From the NCBI GenBank assembly GCA_014377675.1, contig JACMPD010000096.1:1-34173 (forward strand): a stretch of DNA of 34,173 nucleotides, read 5' to 3'. The position numbers and the translations under genes were made by a program. The stretch comes from Taibaiella sp. (lineage in GTDB: Bacteria; Bacteroidota; Bacteroidia; Chitinophagales; Chitinophagaceae). The notes beneath the pieces were generated by a model. It was not told the DNA's origin. It saw only the letters and a program-made list of their open reading frames with translations, and made no database searches. Positions 3,867-32,688 of the stretch are shown piece by piece. Every line of letters starts with the position of its first letter. The first letter of the stretch is position 1.

Positions 3867-4367
3867 TTATGTGTTTTGAATTTTTACTTTAACTACTATC
3901 TTTTTTACCATTGACGGACCACCTGCTTGAATGCAGGGCATGTGAAGGTCGCCTGGAAAGAACACCATGAAAGTACCTGCCTCAAACCTTGAAAAATAGT
4001 CAGGCTGGTCTGCATAGAGCGTGTAGTCCTCTTTATCATCATAGGGTTTAAATACTGCTTTATCTCCTCCGAACGCATGACCGACCAGCTCAACGCCTGA
4101 AATTACATACTGAACATCGATATGTTTACTGTGCGATTCCATTTTTTCTTCCGCCGGATCGAGCGTGGTATACTCCTGCACAATTGCAAAAAGATTGTCA
4201 CCATCAATTATGTGTTTACAAGGTTTTATGGAGAATAAATCAGTTGAAATAAGAAATTGGAGTGCGTCGCTGATTCCTTCGGAAATACCGGAGTACAGGT
4301 TTGAATTGCTTAGTTTATCAATGATCATATTGCAGTTATTGAAAGTATGCAAGATAGCGTTCTTCAT
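3867..4367 (-). CDS. YhcH/YjgK/YiaL family protein
   Basis: The family (DUF386) forms cupin-like beta-barrels found near sugar-catabolism genes; some members are proposed to act on sialic acid or other sugars as anomerases or isomerases. The signature here is EKMESHSKHIDVQYVISGVE, followed by a late FFPGDLHMPCIQ segment. The Glu and His residues in these two stretches are the expected metal-binding set. The frame gives 166 residues. The family normally begins with a hydrophobic MI-I-x-x-L segment, which matches MIIDKLSNSNLY at residue 14, so the true start may be the ATG at 4328, giving 153 residues. No sugar operon surrounds it, only the lipoprotein downstream, so the substrate is unknown. 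Confidence 0.8.
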   Translation of the reverse strand: MKNAILHTFNNCNMIIDKLSNSNLYSGISEGISDALQFLISTDLFSIKPCKHIIDGDNLFAIVQEYTTLDPAEEKMESHSKHIDVQYVISGVELVGHAFGGDKAVFKPYDDKEDYTLYADQPDYFSRFEAGTFMVFFPGDLHMPCIQAGGPSMVKKIVVKVKIQNT

Positions 4368-10234: not shown

Positions 10235-10324
10235 CCGCAATAATCAATAAAAAAATACTTAAGGCAGGCAGCCGTTTTCCAAGGATTATTGTCGCATTAT
10301 GATATTTATTACCTTAGTGACCAC

Positions 10325-10857
10325 ATGAATAAAAACAGGTTAGAGGCATTCAGCGACGGCGTTATCGCGATTATTATTTACAATTATGATACTCGAAATA
10401 AAGACGCCGCATTCCGCCGAATGGAGCGCGCTAAAACCCATGCTGAGCGTTTTTGTGTGTTACGTTTTGAGTTTTGTTATCGTTGGTATTTACTGGGGCA
10501 AATATGCACCTGTTGTTTTGGCTTTCTTTAATACCACTCACTACCAAATGGATGGGAGAAACCAATTTCGAAAAAAATACTGTTATTGCTTATGCCATTT
10601 TATTGCTGCTCTGCGGTGTCTCCTATACCATTCTGCAAATCACCATTGAGAAAAGCAATGAGCTCAGTGAAGATTTAAAATGTGCATTCGGCGCTGTAAA
10701 GCGAAAAGGGCTTATATCAGTGATTTGCTATAGCAGCGCTATCCCACTCGCTTACGTACACACCGCCATTTCAGGAGCTCTATTTGCACTGGTAGCAGTA
10801 ATGTGGCTTGTACCAGACAAAAATATTGAAAAAGCACTCAAAAAGAGAGATGACTAA
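10325..10857 (+). pseudogene. Broken TMEM175-type (DUF1211) potassium channel gene
   Basis: Three overlapping frames together spell one TMEM175-family membrane protein. Frame one gives MNKNRLEAFSDGVIAIII, the family's selectivity-filter helix with the RxxxFSD motif. An extra T within 10377-10379 shifts the frame; removing it restores TIMILEIKTP and the following helix up to VGIYW. At about 10496 the family's NHH-containing loop (around 20 residues) is absent and the frame changes again, resuming as ANMHLLFWLSLIPLTTKWMGE to the end at 10857. So there is a single-base insertion plus an internal deletion of perhaps 60-70 bases that is not a multiple of three. The C-terminal helices are otherwise well preserved, pointing to recent loss. 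A working protein is unlikely from any one frame. Confidence 0.85.
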
Positions 10858-11920: not shown

Positions 11921-12141
11921 GGTATGGAGATTTTAAATTTATGAATATAAGGCAATAGGTATAAAATATCATTCCCACAACGTTAGTGTGCACCTTTTAG
12001 TATGTCACTATAAATTTTAATGATTTACGGACTCACTTTCAAAAGCACAAAAGCGTGTGAACATTACATTTCGTATTCCTGTGCCTTAAACTTTTCCAGG
12101 CTTTCAGCAACAGCTTTATCGCTCAGCGCAAAAATACGGGC

Positions 12142-12519
12142 TCAAAGTACCGCGGCATTTCTAGCACCTGTTTCCCCTACGGCAAGCGTACCTACGGGCA
12201 GGCCTGCAGGCATCTGTACAATGCTGTATAAAGCATCTACGCCACCAGGGAGACCTCCTTTGAGGGGCACACACAGTACGGGTAATGAAGTATAGGCCGT
12301 GCAAACCCCAGGTAATGCCGCTGCCATGCCGACCGCTGCAACCACGGCGCCACGGCCATTATCTATTGCAGTAACCATTAGGTCCCTTACTTTATCGGGG
12401 GTGCGGTGAGCAGAAGCAACTACCATTTCATTTTCAATTTTAAACCAGTTAAGCCAGTTGCTGCATTGCTGCACTACAACTTCATCAGATTTGGAGCCAA
12501 TTATTATCATTACCTTCAC
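12142..12519 (-). CDS. purE: N5-carboxyaminoimidazole ribonucleotide mutase, truncated and probably decayed
   Basis: PurE converts N5-CAIR to CAIR in purine synthesis. The frame (GTG start at 12519, or ATG at 12510) shows GSKSD (8-12), SAHRTPD (36-42, with catalytic His38) and VDALYSIVQMPAGLPVGTLAVG, all typical. Two defects stand out. The active-site His of the family GGAAHLPG loop (E. coli His75) is Ala68 here (VGMAAALPG). A TGA at codon 126 (12142-12144) ends the frame, yet homology resumes directly after it: ARIFALSDKAVAESLEKF, running to a TAA at 12064-12066. The full-length frame would be about 151 residues. TGA is a true stop elsewhere here (gpsA, radC), so this is a nonsense mutation or sequence error. 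No purK is adjacent. A second, intact purE elsewhere is likely if the cell makes purines. Confidence 0.75.
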   Translation of the reverse strand: MKVMIIIGSKSDEVVVQQCSNWLNWFKIENEMVVASAHRTPDKVRDLMVTAIDNGRGAVVAAVGMAAALPGVCTAYTSLPVLCVPLKGGLPGGVDALYSIVQMPAGLPVGTLAVGETGARNAAVL

Positions 12520-15856: not shown

Positions 15857-18142
15857 CTACCTTAAAACAGTAAATTTCTGATAATACCTGTTATTTCCAG
15901 CTTTTATTTCACATATATACAAGCCAACCGGCAATGAATTAACTGTCAGCTTCGCATTGCTTGCATTTGAAGGATAGTCTTTTGAAACCAAGAGGTGGCC
16001 CTGCATATTTGTGATCAGTACACTTACCGTTTTATCGTTCATGCCGCTCCAGTTAATGTTCAATTCATCGCAAACGGGATTAGGGAATAACGATACACTA
16101 CCCTGTTCAGGTATATCTGCGACATAACTATTGTCATATAGCTTCCTTTTATAGAACGTGACGCCCCCCCTTATATCGCCAACAACCATTTCAAATTCAC
16201 CGTCATTATCTATATCAGCAACCGCTGGTGCGCTTCTGAGCCCGCTATATACGCCGGCGGGGCTGCCAGGGTGGTTATAAATGAGGTATGATGAATCGAT
16301 ATAAGAATACTGGGCGGTAATGAGCGGATAAGTAAGCGTTGAATCTCCGCTGCCTATGCTATCATACTGGTAAATGTTGCCGGAATTGCTGCCCATGAGC
16401 AGGTAGTCCTTTCCGGAAGCGTCTATTTTCCCAATAAAGGGAGCACTGAAACAACCGATTACATTCAACGGGTCAACTTTTGCCTGACCCAAATCAGTAT
16501 TAATCAATTTCAAAGATATAGCGCCAGCTGTGGTGCTTACATTCTGAAAATATTGAAGTGATCCGAACGTATTTCCGATGAGCAAATCCTTCTTTCCGTC
16601 CTTGTCAATATCATAAATAATCGGGGCCGCCCTTGCAAAAACATTGATGTCAGTGCCTGTATTGTCTTTAAGCATCCGCTGAGCTATCTGCCACACTGGC
16701 TGTGCCGCGCTTGTAGCCGCAACGTTCTTGAAGTATGAAAGAGAACCATCAGTATGCCCAATAACCAGATCGGCTTTTCCATCATTATCAATATCGCCGA
16801 ACGAAGGAGCCGCACCAATGAATCCGAAGGTATCAATACTAAGAAAATCTCTTGTCTGGAGGGTAAAAGAAGGATTGCCGGTAGTACTGGAATTTTTATA
16901 ATAAGAAATTTTGCTCCGCATTATTCCACTTGCCTGCCTGTAGCCATCAGAACCAATAAACAAATCCACTTTTCCGTCTTTGTTATAATCAAACAATACC
17001 GGATATGAGCCGGACCCAGCATCAATTGTTCTTTCAGTGAGAAATGAATCCGATTTAAATTGCCAGCTGGGTACGCCGGGGGTAGAAAGGTTCTTGTAGA
17101 ACCATACGCACTTGTAGTTTTCTGATGCATTAGGTGCATTAGGTGAAACCACCAGATCTTTCTTCCCGTCTTGATCAATATCGATGTTAAAAGCGGCAGG
17201 CCATACCGGGATTTCAATTTTTTTACCGCCATTCTGCCATGTAGTATCCTGCAATATCATACTGTCATTGCCACCATGTTCGGTTCTGCCGTTTTTAAGA
17301 AAAGTCATTTCATTGTAGGATACACTTCCATCAAGGTAATCATAGTCATTATCCATATCCCAGTCAAAAAGGCATGGCGTGTTCCCCGAATGGGTCGTCT
17401 TAGCCGCTGTGTCATAAGTTGGTTTCAGTCCGGAATTATTACAACTATAGGCAAGTGAGTGTGTGCGGTAGAAACCCTGGTAAACTTTACCCCAGCACTT
17501 GTCTTTCAACGCTATATGTATACTGTCAGCGGGCAGGCCATTTTCAACCTGGAGGTTCTTGTAATAGTTTAATGTGCCCCCGATAATATTATAAGAAACA
17601 AAATCTATATCGCCATCATTATCTACATCGACAATTGCCGGTATATCTCCGGGATTACAAAAGGCATTTGCCGAACCACCCGCGGAAAGATCATTGTTAT
17701 AAAACAGATCCATATAAAACCGGAAACATAATTGATTGCTGCTGTTATAATACCCTTTATATGCTGAAAAACCAGTATAACCACCATGAAACAGATCTGG
17801 TATGTTATCCCGGTTATAGTCGGCCAGTACCAGGTAATTATATAGCGGGGGAAAATTTAAAGCGTATTGTGGTGCATAGCGGTAGTCGGGGTTTCCGGTT
17901 GTGCCTCTGTTTATAAATGTTTTCACGCCCTTGTTAGCCTCAAATACTACGAGATCTTGCAAACCGTCGCGATTCAGGTCGCCCATGGTGAATTGCGGGT
18001 TATCAAAACCACCGCACCAGGCTAGTGTTAGTTCGGTTGAGCCTTTATATACTTTTACACTGTTATCGGGGTAATACATATACTGCCCGCTGGCGTTTCC
18101 AAGTGCGAAACAGGAAAATAAAAAAAGAATGACAGGTCTCAT
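15857..18142 (-). CDS. Large secreted FG-GAP/VCBS-repeat protein with T9SS sorting domain
   Basis: This 761-residue extracellular protein starts at the ATG at 18142, where a typical signal peptide begins (MRPVILFLFSCFALGNASGQ); an ATG 30 bases upstream adds no signal-like residues. The body holds about nine FG-GAP/VCBS-type calcium-binding loops of the D-x-D/N-x-D-G-x-x-D form, for example DLNRDGLQDLVV, DVDNDGDIDFV, DIDQDGKKDLVV, DYNKDGKVDLFI, DIDNDGKADLVIG and DIDKDGKKDLLIG, which together should fold as a beta-propeller. The last ~75 residues (SLFPNPVCDELNINWSG, ITNMQGH, PVGLYICEIKAGN) are a T9SS type A sorting domain. The role may be adhesion or binding of surface material, but no specific ligand is evident. 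It starts 44 bases after recR on the same strand. Confidence 0.88.
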   Translation of the reverse strand: MRPVILFLFSCFALGNASGQYMYYPDNSVKVYKGSTELTLAWCGGFDNPQFTMGDLNRDGLQDLVVFEANKGVKTFINRGTTGNPDYRYAPQYALNFPPLYNYLVLADYNRDNIPDLFHGGYTGFSAYKGYYNSSNQLCFRFYMDLFYNNDLSAGGSANAFCNPGDIPAIVDVDNDGDIDFVSYNIIGGTLNYYKNLQVENGLPADSIHIALKDKCWGKVYQGFYRTHSLAYSCNNSGLKPTYDTAAKTTHSGNTPCLFDWDMDNDYDYLDGSVSYNEMTFLKNGRTEHGGNDSMILQDTTWQNGGKKIEIPVWPAAFNIDIDQDGKKDLVVSPNAPNASENYKCVWFYKNLSTPGVPSWQFKSDSFLTERTIDAGSGSYPVLFDYNKDGKVDLFIGSDGYRQASGIMRSKISYYKNSSTTGNPSFTLQTRDFLSIDTFGFIGAAPSFGDIDNDGKADLVIGHTDGSLSYFKNVAATSAAQPVWQIAQRMLKDNTGTDINVFARAAPIIYDIDKDGKKDLLIGNTFGSLQYFQNVSTTAGAISLKLINTDLGQAKVDPLNVIGCFSAPFIGKIDASGKDYLLMGSNSGNIYQYDSIGSGDSTLTYPLITAQYSYIDSSYLIYNHPGSPAGVYSGLRSAPAVADIDNDGEFEMVVGDIRGGVTFYKRKLYDNSYVADIPEQGSVSLFPNPVCDELNINWSGMNDKTVSVLITNMQGHLLVSKDYPSNASNAKLTVNSLPVGLYICEIKAGNNRYYQKFTVLR

Positions 18143-18186
18143 AGTTATAAATTGTGATGTAAATATAGGCAACCAAAAGACAGCTT

Positions 18187-22343: not shown

Positions 22344-24779
22344 TTATGCTTCTTTAATTTCCTTCTTTTTCATGAAAAGCGGCACCAGAGCACTCAGGCC
22401 CAGTAATATCAGGAAGATACTGCTTGCCATAGCAATGGTTTTCCCTTTGTAGAAGCTTTCAGGATGAAAATGAAATTCTATTTTATGGTTTCCGGCAGGC
22501 ACTTTTATGCTACGCAGCACATAATCAGCTTTCATAATAGGCGTTTCGTTGCCATCCACAAAAGCTTTCCAGCCTTTTTCGTAATAAATATCAGAAAATA
22601 CTGCCAGGCCTGGTTTACTGTTATTGGATATGAAAGAAATATCATTCAGGCCATATTTATCCAGCTTTACATATGCAGCGCTGTCTTTCCCAAAAGTGTA
22701 ATTGCCCATAACTGACTGAAAAGTACCCCTGATAACAGCCGTCTTTTTGGGCTGGAACGCACCGGGTGCTGTCACGGTATCGCCAAGTTTACGGGCATTC
22801 AGGCTGTTGATTTCTTCATCAGCCGTTGCCGCCCATTTCACCTCATCAACAAACCATGCGTTGCCGCAAGCCTCGGTATTAGGCATTACCTGCGGGGCAC
22901 TCTTCTGCCCTCCCACTATTATATACTTTGTATTGAGCATATTTAAGACCTCAGCATTAAATCCTTTGCTGAGATGACGGTCAATAAGATCCTGGTATAT
23001 TTCCATTTTAGCAGGTGAGTATCCGCCCACGCATTTATGAAAATAGGCCTGAACCGCATCATTATAGGTATCTTTGGAAAGGTCAAGCACCCGGTAATAG
23101 GGGTCTTTATCCTGCATGATAGCCTTATCTACATCACGTGGCTGAAATACTGCTTCATAGTCAGCAGCATCTTCAAAATTGTTTTCATTAAGATAGGTAT
23201 GGGCTACCGGGTAAAGGTCAAAAACCATTATTGCCGCCAGACCACCAATCAGCATTCCCGGCTTCAGCTTATCTTTAATGAAACCATATAACAGCGCAGC
23301 AGCAAGGAGGATAAAAACGGCGCTGCGGAGGCCGCTTTTCATAGCAAGCGACGCTCTGTCATCTCGCAGCGCAGCCATTATTTCGGCAGGCATCTGTGCG
23401 TCTTCAGCACCTTTAAAGTCAAAAAACATTCCGCCTGCTACTCCTAACAATAGACACAGACCTGCCGTAATACCAGTAGCAATTTTCAATTTTTTCCATA
23501 TCTCAGCAGGGTTATCTTTCTTTGTGAGTATATCATTTACCGCCCACATGCCTAATAAAGGAAACAAAAACTGTGGCACCACCATAGCCATGGAGGGCGT
23601 CCTGAATTTATTGAGCATTGGCAGGTGATCAAAAAGGAAGTAGTTAACGCCCGCAAAATTTTTACCCCATGATAGAACTATACCAATAATGCTTGCCGCC
23701 ACTATCCACCATTTGTGGGGCGATTTTACAACCATTAAACCCAACACAAACAAAAAGCACACTATAGCGCCAAAATAAACAGGCCCGCTTAAGAACGGCT
23801 GGGGACCCCAGTAAAGCGGTAATTTCTCATATCTGCCACCTGTCATTTCATATGTTTTTGGTGCCTTATCTGATGACTCTCCTGAAGATCCGCCATACAA
23901 ATAAGGGATCATAATACAAAAAGTCTCACCTATACCATTACTCCAGCGGAAAGCATAGTCTTTATCCAAGCCGCCGTTTTCCTTCTTGTCATGGCCTGAA
24001 AGCTCACTTGCCCCACCACGCATTGTCGCTTTTGTGTACTCCTGTGCCGGCAATATGGAGGTCATGTTAGGGCCGGTGCCAACTAGCCCAACCACCACAG
24101 CAATGACAGAAGAAATAAGGAATTCTTTAATTTTTCCTTCCTTTAGTGCTATATAAAACATAACCAGGCCGAAACAAACGAATATAAATAAATAGTAATA
24201 GATAACCTGGTAGTGACCGTTTATAGCAATAAGCGCAATTGCAAACCCCCACAAAGCAGCTCCCGTGAGCCACTTTTCTTTATAAATAAGATAGAGCCCT
24301 GCAATAGCCGCTGGCAGGTAGGCGATAGTCATCATTTTAGTATCATGGCCCACACCTATAATAATAGCGTTATAGGATGAGAACGCGTAAGCGAACGCGC
24401 CCACCATACCCAGCCATTTATTAACCCCCAGCACCCGCATGAGCAGGTAAAAGCAAAGCATTGCGATAAAGAAAAAATACGCAGGCTTCCCTACCGCCTC
24501 CAGAATATCCTGTACAAAACCAACATAGTTAGACTGCCCGGAAACCGCATAGGTGGTGTATGACGGCATACCGCCAAACATGCTGTTAGACCACATTACA
24601 TCTTTGCCTGTGGAGTCATGGAATGCCATGGCTTCGTGAGACATGCCCTGCCATGAAATATTATCATGCGCATTAAGTTTTTTACCTTGTATCTGCGGCA
24701 GGCAATAGAGTAATGATATGACCACAAATGCCACAATGGCGAGCAGGTCTATCTTTAGTTTGTTAAAATCAAATTTCAT
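22344..24779 (-). CDS. YfhO family membrane protein
   Basis: This is an 811-residue inner-membrane protein of the YfhO family (GT-C-like fold), thought to glycosylate cell-surface polymers such as lipoteichoic acid in Firmicutes; the role in Bacteroidota is not settled. The start at 24779 gives MKFDFNKLKIDLLAIVAF, a short polar start then TM1, and a TATTTTTG box lies 17 bases before it. The first luminal loop has NAHDNISWQGMSHEAMAFHDSTGKD, the family's conserved acidic/His region. About a dozen helices fill residues 10-510, followed by a large non-membrane domain and a last helix (SSIFLILLGLSALVPLFMKKK) near the C-terminus. It is followed by the acyltransferase and flippase genes, which supports a part in glycan modification. 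Confidence 0.85.
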   Translation of the reverse strand: MKFDFNKLKIDLLAIVAFVVISLLYCLPQIQGKKLNAHDNISWQGMSHEAMAFHDSTGKDVMWSNSMFGGMPSYTTYAVSGQSNYVGFVQDILEAVGKPAYFFFIAMLCFYLLMRVLGVNKWLGMVGAFAYAFSSYNAIIIGVGHDTKMMTIAYLPAAIAGLYLIYKEKWLTGAALWGFAIALIAINGHYQVIYYYLFIFVCFGLVMFYIALKEGKIKEFLISSVIAVVVGLVGTGPNMTSILPAQEYTKATMRGGASELSGHDKKENGGLDKDYAFRWSNGIGETFCIMIPYLYGGSSGESSDKAPKTYEMTGGRYEKLPLYWGPQPFLSGPVYFGAIVCFLFVLGLMVVKSPHKWWIVAASIIGIVLSWGKNFAGVNYFLFDHLPMLNKFRTPSMAMVVPQFLFPLLGMWAVNDILTKKDNPAEIWKKLKIATGITAGLCLLLGVAGGMFFDFKGAEDAQMPAEIMAALRDDRASLAMKSGLRSAVFILLAAALLYGFIKDKLKPGMLIGGLAAIMVFDLYPVAHTYLNENNFEDAADYEAVFQPRDVDKAIMQDKDPYYRVLDLSKDTYNDAVQAYFHKCVGGYSPAKMEIYQDLIDRHLSKGFNAEVLNMLNTKYIIVGGQKSAPQVMPNTEACGNAWFVDEVKWAATADEEINSLNARKLGDTVTAPGAFQPKKTAVIRGTFQSVMGNYTFGKDSAAYVKLDKYGLNDISFISNNSKPGLAVFSDIYYEKGWKAFVDGNETPIMKADYVLRSIKVPAGNHKIEFHFHPESFYKGKTIAMASSIFLILLGLSALVPLFMKKKEIKEA

Positions 24780-24796
24780 ATCGTGCAATTGACGAA

Positions 24797-24804
24797 CAAA
24801 AATA
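24797..24804 (-). promoter_or_regulatory. -7 box of the yfhO-like gene
   Basis: On the minus strand this reads TATTTTTG, an exact TAnnTTTG match 17 bases before the ATG at 24779. No good -33 TTTG is visible at 19-21 bases. Confidence 0.4.
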
Positions 24805-24875
24805 ATCGTTCTTATCACTTACAACTATTAAAAATGAAAAAAGTTGCGCCATTAGCGGTTAATTTGAGTTAATGG

Positions 24876-25559
24876 GTGAATAATAATGGATTTAGCGGAA
24901 AAAGCGAGAAAAATTTAGGGCAAATTTCAGGATTTATCTATTATTGCATAAAAAAAGCAAAGTCAGGTTACAAAGAACTTTTTGAAAACAACAAGGAGTG
25001 GGTTTCAGTAATGAAGGGCCGCGAAGTTGATTTTTTTGAAAAGCGTTCACAAGGTCAAAGACCCGATTATCGATACATTGGCTCTGACGGCCGGGTGCTG
25101 GCTAATGAAATAGTAGGAATGCAGCCAGAAGACGTATTTGTCCACCGCAATATTGCTAACATGGTGAATAATACTGACATGAATGTAATGTCCGTAATTA
25201 ACTATGCTACAGTTCACCTTAATGTGAAGCATATCATTGTTTGCGGCCATTATAACTGTAGTGGAGTAAAGGCAGCGATGCAGGCGAAAGAAATGGGTAT
25301 AATCAACTTGTGGCTCAGAGGCATTAGGGATGTATACCAGTTGCATATGGCCGAGCTTGACGCCATTAAACATGAGTACGAAAGATATACCAGGCTGGTG
25401 GAACTAAATGTAAGAGAGCAGGCTATAAACGTAATTAAAACAGCTAATGTGCAGAAACTGTACTTGAAACAGGGCTTCCCTGTGGTACATGGCTGGGTTT
25501 TTGATCTGAAGACTGGCCTGCTGAAAGTCCTTGAGATTGGTTTCGCTTCAATACTTTAA
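24876..25559 (+). CDS. Beta-class carbonic anhydrase, probably inactivated
   Basis: The frame encodes a 227-residue beta-carbonic anhydrase (CO2 hydration) in recognisable shape: YKELFENNKEW, FVHRNIANMVNNTDMNVMSVI, the zinc-site segment VCGHYNCSGVKAAM (His125, Cys128), GWVFDLKTGLLKVLE. Three defects are visible. The signature IGCSDSRV reads IGSDGRV (68-74): the Cys zinc ligand is missing as exactly one codon between 25082 and 25083, and the second Ser is Gly. No ATG exists where homology begins; the only upstream start is a GTG giving about 30 unlike residues, while an ATA at 24948 sits where ATG would be expected. After the TAA at 25557-25559 the frame continues with KIQKIYDLTGM, resembling the family's C-terminus. 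It is most likely a decaying gene; otherwise a non-catalytic homologue. Confidence 0.8.
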   Translation: MNNNGFSGKSEKNLGQISGFIYYCIKKAKSGYKELFENNKEWVSVMKGREVDFFEKRSQGQRPDYRYIGSDGRVLANEIVGMQPEDVFVHRNIANMVNNTDMNVMSVINYATVHLNVKHIIVCGHYNCSGVKAAMQAKEMGIINLWLRGIRDVYQLHMAELDAIKHEYERYTRLVELNVREQAINVIKTANVQKLYLKQGFPVVHGWVFDLKTGLLKVLEIGFASIL

Positions 25560-25673
25560 AAAATACAGAAAATCTATGACCTCACCGGGATGGTATCAGC
25601 TACAAGTGAAGATGGCGATTTTTAAAGAGTATACCGATGAAATTTATTCAACTACCCATTTTCCCCAATAGAT

Positions 25674-26363
25674 ATGAGCGACTTTAACAGCATTAAAAAC
25701 TGGCTTGAAGATGACCGGCCGCGCGAGAAGATGATGCAAAAGGGCGCGGCAGCGCTTACTGACGCTGAGTTGCTCGCCATACTTTTATCAACCGGGAGTA
25801 GGAATAAATCAGCTGTTGACCTGGCAAAAGAAGCACTTGAAATGGCACATAATAATCTCAGGGAACTTGGGCGGCTGAATATTGATGAACTGCAAAAGAT
25901 AAATGGCATCGGGGAAGCCAAGGCCATAATTATATCCGCATCAATGGAACTGGGCCGGCGAAGGCAACTGGCTGCCGGCCTTGAACGCAAGGCAGTGCGC
26001 ACAAGCGCTGACGCGGTGGAGATATTTATGCCAATATTACAAGATTTAAATCATGAGGCGTTTTGCGTGGTATATATGAACCAGGCCTGCAAGGTGATAA
26101 AGACAGAACTGGTAAGTAATGGCGGACTTACGGCGACTGTGGCGGATATACGTATTATTTTAAAAAACGCATTGCTTTGCAATGCAAATACGCTACTGCT
26201 GGGGCATAACCATCCATCGGGGAATAAAACGCCAAGTGAGCAGGATAAGATTCTCACTCGTAAAATAAAGGAAGCGGCAGCACTGATGGATATAAAATTA
26301 CTGGACCATATAATAATAGCCGGCAATGACTACCTCAGCCTTTCTGATGAAGGCTATTGTTGA
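25674..26363 (+). CDS. radC: RadC family JAB-domain protein
   Basis: This 229-residue protein is of the RadC type. Despite the name, a DNA-repair role is doubtful. The N-terminal half carries a helix-hairpin-helix (LGRLNIDELQKINGIGEAKA, about 65-84). The C-terminal half is a JAB/MPN metalloprotease-like domain with the JAMM motif complete: His178 and His180 in GHNHPSG and Asp191 downstream, plus a conserved Glu in TELVSNGG. The start ATG at 25674 gives MSDFNSIKNWLEDDRPREKM, the usual RadC N-terminus. The gene follows the defective carbonic anhydrase by about 114 bases and is followed by a convergent START-like gene. Confidence 0.9.
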   Translation: MSDFNSIKNWLEDDRPREKMMQKGAAALTDAELLAILLSTGSRNKSAVDLAKEALEMAHNNLRELGRLNIDELQKINGIGEAKAIIISASMELGRRRQLAAGLERKAVRTSADAVEIFMPILQDLNHEAFCVVYMNQACKVIKTELVSNGGLTATVADIRIILKNALLCNANTLLLGHNHPSGNKTPSEQDKILTRKIKEAAALMDIKLLDHIIIAGNDYLSLSDEGYC

Positions 26364-30377: not shown

Positions 30378-30819
30378 GACAATTGTTTTTAGTTTGATTC
30401 AATATTTCTAAGTGAAATGAAAAAATTATGCCAGCAGGCTTGGTCACCTTGCATTATAATAGCTTTTCACCTACTTCCCGGTGTCCATAAAAAGCTAATC
30501 ACTAATTAATTTTAGCATGTTCCACAACGGCAAAAAGTTCAATTTCTTATTAAAGAAGATACCGTTTGTAAAATTTTAAAAAAAAATAATTACACAAAAA
30601 AAAAATAAAAAGCTATTGACATCCTCGGCTTTGGCTATATACCCACCGCAGTGCCGGTGATCTGATTTTTTTAAAGGCAAGTAATCAATATTTCGTCGGG
30701 TAGTTTTCAAAACAAATTCAACAGATCCAAATGATTTTTTTAACTAGCATTTCATAAATCGTCATTCTTCTAACAAACTAAAAAACAGTAATTACGTAAC
30801 CATTAAAACCAAAATTACA
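30378..30819. other. Intergenic region with a composite hairpin
   Basis: These 442 bases hold no gene that I can support. There is a composite hairpin: TAGCTTTT (30460-30467) with AAAAGCTA (30490-30497), enclosing CACC (30468-30471) with GGTG (30480-30483). A small CACCG/CGGTG stem (30644-30648, 30655-30659) with a T-run at 30666-30672 looks like a weak plus-strand terminator. Confidence 0.4.
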
Positions 30820-31584
30820 ATGAGAAAAAGTCTATCTTGGTCATTATTTGTCGTCTTACTAATTACCTTCGCCACCACTGGTGAGGCGCAAGTAATTAGT
30901 ACATTTGCCGGTATGGGCACTGCCGGCTACACCGGTAACGGCGGCTCCGCGAGTGTGGCACAACTATCGCGACCCACAAGTATTGTCGCTGATGACTCAG
31001 GAAATGTGTACATAGCCGACTATGATAATAATGTAATACGCAAGGTAACGACAGACGGCCTTATTAATACGCTTGCAGGAAACGGCACCCCAGGGTACAG
31101 TGGCGATGGCGGTTCTTCAACAGCTGCACAACTTTCCGCACCATCAGGCATAGCGGTAGACGTGGCAGGGAATCTGTATATACTTTTGCAGGAACTGGCA
31201 CAGTTGGGTCATCAGGCAATGGCGGCCTGGCTGTTTTGGCCAGATTAAACTTCCCTTACGGCGTAGCTGCTGACCGTGCAGGCAATATATATATATCGCA
31301 GATGCAGGGAATAGCGTGATACGCAGGGTGAACAGCGCCGGCATCATTAGTCGTTTCGCAGGTACAACAGCTACTATAGGCAATAGTGGCGATGGTGGCG
31401 CGGCCACAACGGCAGAGTTGAATTTTCCAACAGGGGTATCGGCTGACAGCTCAGGAAATGTGTTTGTAGCTGATAACGGTAACCATATAGTTAGAAAAAT
31501 TTCAACAACAGGCATTATTTCAACTTTAGCAGGAAATGATACTGCGGGATAGGCAGGAGACGGCGGCGCAGTTGTTTTTCCCAT
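30820..31584 (+). pseudogene. Degenerate NHL-repeat exported protein (5' part of broken gene)
   Basis: The ATG at 30820 begins a signal peptide (MRKSLSWSLFVVLLITFATTGEAQ), followed by NHL-type beta-propeller repeats of the form AGNGTPGYSGDGG, AQLSAPSGIAVD, GNLYIAD, VIRKV. The frame then breaks repeatedly. At about 31182-31185, GNLYI is joined directly to FAGTG, so about 20 residues of a repeat are missing. Around 31284-31294 a TA dinucleotide is added to a TA run. A TAG at 31550-31552 replaces a Tyr-type codon in GYAGDGG. A further shift occurs before the next ORF. Read piecewise in three frames, the repeats remain clear, so loss looks recent. It is the front of the same gene whose PKD/T9SS rear is at 31585-32688. 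Confidence 0.85.
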
Positions 31585-32688
31585 ATGGAGTATCAGCTGA
31601 CAGAAGAGGCTACCAATACCCAGGAAATAGTGGTAAGGGTAAACCCTACTCCAATACTTACAAGCGACACCCATGATACCGTGTGCAGCGGCGTACAGTT
31701 TACCTATGTACCAACGAGCTCAACAAGCGGAGCAACCTACACATGGAACCGCAGTGCTGTTTCCGGCATAACACCTGCTACAGGTTCGGGGTCAGGTAAT
31801 CTTGTGGAAACACTTATCAATACTACTGCATCACCGGTAATAGCTATATATGTTTTCACTGTAACAGCTAATGGTTGTTCAAGTACAGCTACTGTTGTAA
31901 AAACAGTAAACGCTCCGGTGCCTGTTCCTGTAATAGTTACCAATACACCTGTTAACGTATGTTCTAATACAAAATTCCAAAACTTTGGTGCGGCAACATT
32001 ACCTGCATCAGGTCTGAATTACAACTGGTCAGCTTCCAACGCTGCGATATGGTCGCAGGGCGCTAACCACCAGTACGCACTTGTCAATTTCCCTAATCCG
32101 GGTACGGCTGTCGTTTATCTTAAGACAAATATAATAGGAGCAGCGTGCAGCAACACAGATTCATTTATAGTAAATGTTAGCAGCAGCGTATCAGACAATG
32201 TAACTGTAATTTATTATAACAGCCGCTTTGTAGCGTCACCAGGTAATGAGGATAGCTACCAGTGGGGTTATGACGATAAAACTACTCTTGACTCAACTAT
32301 GTTGCATGGTGAAGTAAACCAGGATTATTATAATGCAACTCCTGACTTTGGTAACAAGTCTTATTGGGTGATCAATACTCATAATGGGTGTATGCAGAAA
32401 ACCTATTTCAATTCACCTTTAGGTGTTACTGAGACTAATGAACCTGCTATTGCTTCTATTAATGTTTTCCCTAACCCAACTGACGGCAATATAAATATTG
32501 AAGTAAGTGCAAATGTGAAAGGTGATATTAAATACGAAATAGCTAATATGATAGGTCAGCAGTACAAGGTGACAACAGCAGGCAACAGCGTTAGCATGAA
32601 TGTAACTGACTTACCGGCAGGTGTTTATATAATAACATGTACACAGGAAGGTACAAAAATCGCCTCAACAAGGTTTATTAAAAACTAA
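31585..32688 (+). CDS. PKD-like and T9SS-domain remnant of the broken NHL-repeat gene
   Basis: The open frame gives 367 residues. The first ATG is probably not a native start because there is no signal peptide and the preceding bases belong to the NHL region in another frame. From EEATNTQEIVVRVNPTPI on, it carries PKD-like immunoglobulin-fold segments (VCSGVQFTYVPTSS, ATYTWNRSAVSGITPA, ASPVIAIYVFTVTANGCSSTA), a second domain around NYNWSASNAAIWSQG, and a T9SS type A tail (INVFPNPTDGNINIEV, NMIGQQYKV, LPAGVYIITCTQEGTKIASTRFIKN). The whole 30820-32688 locus was most likely one secreted adhesin-like protein. Without a signal peptide this remnant should not be exported, so I regard it as non-functional in its present form. 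The next gene starts 30 bases later. Confidence 0.7.
   Translation: MEYQLTEEATNTQEIVVRVNPTPILTSDTHDTVCSGVQFTYVPTSSTSGATYTWNRSAVSGITPATGSGSGNLVETLINTTASPVIAIYVFTVTANGCSSTATVVKTVNAPVPVPVIVTNTPVNVCSNTKFQNFGAATLPASGLNYNWSASNAAIWSQGANHQYALVNFPNPGTAVVYLKTNIIGAACSNTDSFIVNVSSSVSDNVTVIYYNSRFVASPGNEDSYQWGYDDKTTLDSTMLHGEVNQDYYNATPDFGNKSYWVINTHNGCMQKTYFNSPLGVTETNEPAIASINVFPNPTDGNINIEVSANVKGDIKYEIANMIGQQYKVTTAGNSVSMNVTDLPAGVYIITCTQEGTKIASTRFIKN

Follow-up and report, generated by a model that had tools for sequence, protein, structure and literature searches.

Is the carbonic anhydrase gene of a Taibaiella sp. that lacks a zinc-binding Cys a dying gene, or does it encode a homologue that has given up zinc catalysis? 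These two possibilities were left by an earlier note on a contig of the draft genome (GCA_014377675.1, JACMPD010000096.1), of which a stretch of 34,173 nucleotides, here called the window, was analysed. In the 750 bases from 24876 to 25625, the note had described a beta-carbonic anhydrase lacking its start codon, a zinc-ligand Cys and part of the C-terminus, and all three losses are visible in the sequence. We consider that this gene is very probably a recently inactivated beta-carbonic anhydrase, i.e. a recent pseudogene.

Identity and extent of the gene

The gene is assigned to the beta-carbonic anhydrases by its match to Pfam Pro_CA (PF00484; E 3.1e-42, 144.9 bits, with a cut-off of 25.7). 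Its best NCBIfam match is NF007756, the Can/YadF equivalog, with 176 bits, under the curated cut-off of 251, a value that may also fail intact Bacteroidota relatives. The gene aligns across nearly its full length with a set of solved enzymes including 1ddz and the E. coli 1i6o. It is alike over nearly the whole length to the type II beta-carbonic anhydrases (Can/YadF; NF007756, PF00484), but it lacks the start codon, the first zinc-ligand Cys and some 22 residues at the C-terminus.

Taken from the commonest Met site of the relatives to the second stop, the full homology of the putative pseudogene extends from 24960 to 25625 on the forward strand, as delimited by PF00484 and by the alignment with 105 distinct relatives. 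The open frame itself runs from a GTG (24876) to a premature TAA (24876-25559, forward strand; 227 aa), its first 28 codons being 5' of the relatives' commonest Met. A chance reading frame was also considered and is ruled out by the Pro_CA score of 144.9 bits and by the 21 and 24 stops that the other forward frames contain across the same stretch.

Zinc-binding motifs

The zinc of the type II enzymes has four ligands, a Cys, an Asp, a His and a second Cys, which are Cys46, Asp48, His102 and Cys105 in the B. pseudomallei enzyme (PMC7287614). The first Cys is gone from the window gene while the Asp, the His and the second Cys are present, and each of these ligands is found in all 105 distinct relatives. 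The loss lies at 25077-25097 (forward strand), where close relatives have IGCSDSRV and the window has IGSDGRV. As the earlier note had seen, exactly one codon is missing, that of the zinc-ligand Cys, and the frame is kept. The second Ser of CSDSR is also changed to Gly, with the Asp and the Arg preserved (C, D and R occur in 105/105 distinct relatives). The other two ligands were likewise found where they had been placed, within CGHYNCSG (25242-25265, forward strand), with the His at 25248 (residue 125) and the Cys at 25257 (residue 128); the Ser next to them (25260) occupies the position of a Gly that is invariant in the 105 relatives. The putative product, if made, would probably neither hold zinc normally nor hydrate CO2. 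In the open-access literature searched (titles and abstract openings), no natural beta-carbonic anhydrase missing the first zinc-ligand Cys was found.

Start codon and C-terminal tail

The starts of the 105 distinct relatives were set by a script rule, as the nearest ATG at or before the homology. Counted from a conserved Tyr, the initiator Met is three codons 5' in 66 relatives, two codons in 19, four codons in 18 and at a greater distance in the remaining two. The window codons at these three commonest places are AAG (24960-24962, forward strand), TCA (24963) and GCA (24957), respectively, and the AAG at the commonest one is no start codon. The start is thus lost as claimed, but not at the place claimed: the ATA at 24948 is seven codons 5' of the Tyr and four codons 5' of the AAG, so it is upstream of the homology and not where this begins. 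The stretch from the GTG to 24959 is 5' of the start, or overlaps the protein by at most one codon, in 103 of the 105 relatives. One relative with an intact motif, L044, has an apparent TTG start instead of ATG (3998-4000 of that locus). ATG is therefore not obligatory in the family, and AAG is still no known start.

The premature TAA (25557-25559, forward strand) stands in a column that is mostly occupied by a residue in the relatives (K in 25, H in 25, R in 9, E in 9 and others, of 105). After it, the frame continues with KIQKIYDLTGMVSATSEDGDF and closes with a second stop ending at 25625 (25560-25625, forward strand). Compared with the same-genus homologues, this tail has 12 of 20 residues identical to L004, 15 of 20 to L005 and 12 of 21 to L006, so the family-like residues that had been noticed beyond the TAA are indeed there. 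Since the family sequence can still be read past the stop, the truncation looks recent.

Relatives and conserved sites

Relatives were searched in 59 genomes, own genome included, with matches in 53 of them, and in a GTDB contig collection, from which 80 of 84 relatives were kept. We read 109 relative loci (L004 to L112), search matches listed without a locus being left out. They comprise 105 distinct aligned proteins, two identical ones that were collapsed, and L044 and L109, which were read separately, outside the alignment, because the script chose a wrong start for them; L001 and L003 are the window itself and were dropped. The zinc-ligand Cys is kept in all 109 loci, L044 and L109 included. 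Orthologues with the same Cys loss, which the earlier note had proposed as the mark of a real non-canonical family, thus number 0 of the 109 loci read, and no conserved zinc-free family is seen.

The damage was also counted over 57 near-invariant columns, defined as those in which 97% or more of the other sequences agree. The window copy is altered at 8 of them, the most among 106 sequences, the next highest having 5. The altered sites are the lost Cys, the Ser of CSDSR, the Gly after the last ligand, L to R twice, G to E, V to T and R to Q; because of these last changes, the damage is not limited to the active-site motifs. The same-genus homologues L004 (from genome G001), L005 (G003) and L006 (G008) have 66-71% identity to the window gene (tblastn) but differ from it in having an ATG start, keeping CSDSR and reading through to the tail.

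Two types of this carbonic anhydrase are carried by the same-genus genomes, a PANEI-type in G001, G003 and G008 (the three loci above) and a TAEE/TAED-type in the other seven genomes (L010 to L013, L015, L018 and L019). Their location on different tree branches suggests carbonic anhydrase replacement or differential loss within the genus.

A second beta-carbonic anhydrase in the genome

Another beta-carbonic anhydrase gene is present in the same genome, on contig C297, just downstream of a transporter gene, presumably of the SulP type, and its CMDSR and HTNC motifs are intact. The protein belongs to the same Pfam family as the window gene but to a distant subfamily (NF011765-like, 214.7 bits, with a cut-off of 221), and it has 28% identity to the window gene product over part of its length. 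The intact paralogue that the earlier note advised looking for therefore exists as regards its ligands, but it is only a distant one, and no close copy is found in the assembly. No match to the alpha class was obtained in this genome (the gamma class was outside the search). The assembly is a draft of 306 contigs with an estimated completeness of 84.55%, so further carbonic anhydrase copies are possible.

Selection and neutral decay

In the protein tree, the window gene has an end branch of 0.50, whereas those of the same-genus homologues sharing its type, three in number, measure 0.10, 0.16 and 0.21. The exact place of the window gene is unsure, however, and several Cys-bearing relatives (L020, L026, L031, L032, L099 and L060) have longer end branches. 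A purpose-written branch codon model (15 sequences, 199 codons, branch lengths near saturation) gave an omega of 0.17 for the window branch and 0.08 for the background, about twice as high (2dlnL 6.5). The corresponding single-test p is about 0.011 (chi-square, one df), which, with 15 tips tested, would fail correction but for the prior choice of the window gene. Since one of the intact relatives, L040, slightly exceeds the window gene in omega (0.173 and 0.172, respectively) and branch lengths are near saturation, the raised value is modest evidence. On the other hand, omega = 1 on the window branch is rejected (worse by 2dlnL 32), which implies constraint over most of the branch and leaves room for a functional protein. 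The dN/dS check suggested earlier thus shows relaxation, at a level still far below 1.

Three other genes served as controls for the same lineage. Their omega values, window lineage against background, are 0.047 and 0.073 for YfhO, 0.025 and 0.022 for PhoH, and 0.027 and 0.040 for RadC, with no significant rise found in any of them. The relaxation is specific to the carbonic anhydrase gene, as far as tested with these three. The identity of the window carbonic anhydrase to that of G001 is 0.689, against 0.814 between G001 and G003; the YfhO values for these pairs are 0.776 and 0.794. The carbonic anhydrase identity to G001 is hence below the YfhO-based expectation.

Neutral decay was simulated from three intact relatives with substitutions alone, no deletions or insertions. 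On average, 40 neutral substitutions changed 7.1-7.4 conserved sites and produced 1.25-1.53 stops. The window gene carries substitutions at seven conserved sites, the loss of one codon and one internal stop, with no frameshift. The two being comparable, its damage fits a gene that was under constraint for long and was released from it recently.

Genomic neighbourhood

To the left, the gene has a divergent YfhO-like membrane protein gene (22344-24818, reverse strand; PF09586, E 5.7e-17), and to the right, a gene for a RadC family protein (25674-26363, forward strand; PF04002, E 5e-40). None of the 8 relatives examined has a carbonic anhydrase gene adjoining radC, and in 7 of them a different gene, beginning MI[YFW]HIVTGD, stands divergently beside it. 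The YfhO gene of genome G007 retains the two left neighbours found in the window, and radC of G003 retains the two right ones; both sides are therefore old, with a junction that is not shared. Around the carbonic anhydrase of 11 relatives, no gene matching the window's carbonic anhydrase neighbours was found in the stretches compared, some of which end at contig ends (the shortest having 3.5 kb), and the two weak matches obtained are both to window genes far from the carbonic anhydrase. We infer that the window lineage is the rearranged one.

Other genes of the window were inspected as well. The purE gene beside phoH (12076-12516, reverse strand) contains one in-frame stop with homology continuing past it. 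In 9 of 10 other same-genus genomes purE is next to phoH without stops, and a second, stop-free AIRC gene is found in the own genome on contig C238. A TMEM175-like potassium channel gene (10280-10857, forward strand), with PF06736 in one of its three pieces, has these pieces, by eye, in different frames, and is either a frameshifted gene or a sequence error. An NHL-propeller gene (30818-31600, forward strand), located before a secretion-tail protein, reads on in several frames by eye and is probably broken by frameshifts.

Dying gene or altered protein

The window gene might be a retained homologue without zinc, translated from the GTG at 24876 or from an internal ATG (the first Met of a 182-residue reading), whose fold is kept for a structural or binding role. 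We regard this as very improbable. The 227-codon frame free of frameshifts, where the other forward frames have 21 and 24 stops, agrees with such a protein, and so do the branch dN/dS of 0.17 with omega = 1 rejected and the preservation of the Asp, the Arg, the His and the second Cys. However, the Cys loss is common to 0 of the 109 relative loci read, conserved sites beyond the active-site motifs are altered (two L to R changes and a G to E among them), the still family-like tail makes the truncation look recent, and what would be the new N-terminal stretch, from the GTG to 24959, is 5' of the start or within one codon of it in 103 of the 105 relatives. We find it highly improbable that the gene encodes a carbonic anhydrase-related protein with an incomplete zinc site, a GTG start, a new N-terminus and a short C-terminus, put to a non-enzymatic role after the yfhO/radC rearrangement. 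The vertebrate CARPs and the plant gamma-CAL are carbonic anhydrase homologues without metal ligands. The window gene resembles them in its ligand loss, but those proteins are conserved across species, whereas this loss is seen in a single genome.

An error of sequencing or assembly could make an intact gene appear broken, and the draft state of the genome (306 contigs, 84.55% complete) together with the broken look of other window genes (purE with one stop, the TMEM175-like and NHL genes in several frames) leaves some room for it. We nevertheless hold it to be very unlikely, since multiple lesions of different kinds with an excess of conserved-site changes are untypical of isolated errors. 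Long neighbours are also open (YfhO, with 824 aa, and a 771-aa ORF at 15857-18172), and the dN/dS of YfhO, PhoH and RadC is ordinary. Overlapping with the pseudogene reading, a duplicate may have landed without a start and been dead on arrival, its parent lying in a part of the genome that is missing from the assembly. The estimated completeness of 84.55% and the absence from the relatives examined of the junction around the window gene are in favor of this origin, which we judge unlikely: no close homologue is present elsewhere in the assembly, the other beta-carbonic anhydrase being distant (28% identity, partial length), and the low dN/dS of the whole branch suggests that the gene was functional for long before it decayed.

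Between the two possibilities of the earlier note, the evidence thus sides with the dying gene, given the loss of the start and of a ligand, the nonsense codon with homology beyond it, the relaxation and the unshared nature of the loss. The zinc-free branch has against it the absence of any locus without the Cys among the 109 and the altered sites outside the motifs. The lesions and the second, intact carbonic anhydrase of the genome point to an ordinary dying gene rather than to a new kind of enzyme. We suggest that the rearrangement, redundancy with the second enzyme, or both may have lifted selection on the gene, and that about 40 neutral substitutions would then have built up. Read as a recent pseudogene, the window gene would be a clear case of recent carbonic anhydrase decay, otherwise ordinary, in a genome where another beta-carbonic anhydrase remains. 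It also calls for caution, as a lone degenerate copy in a draft genome should not be named a new non-catalytic family.
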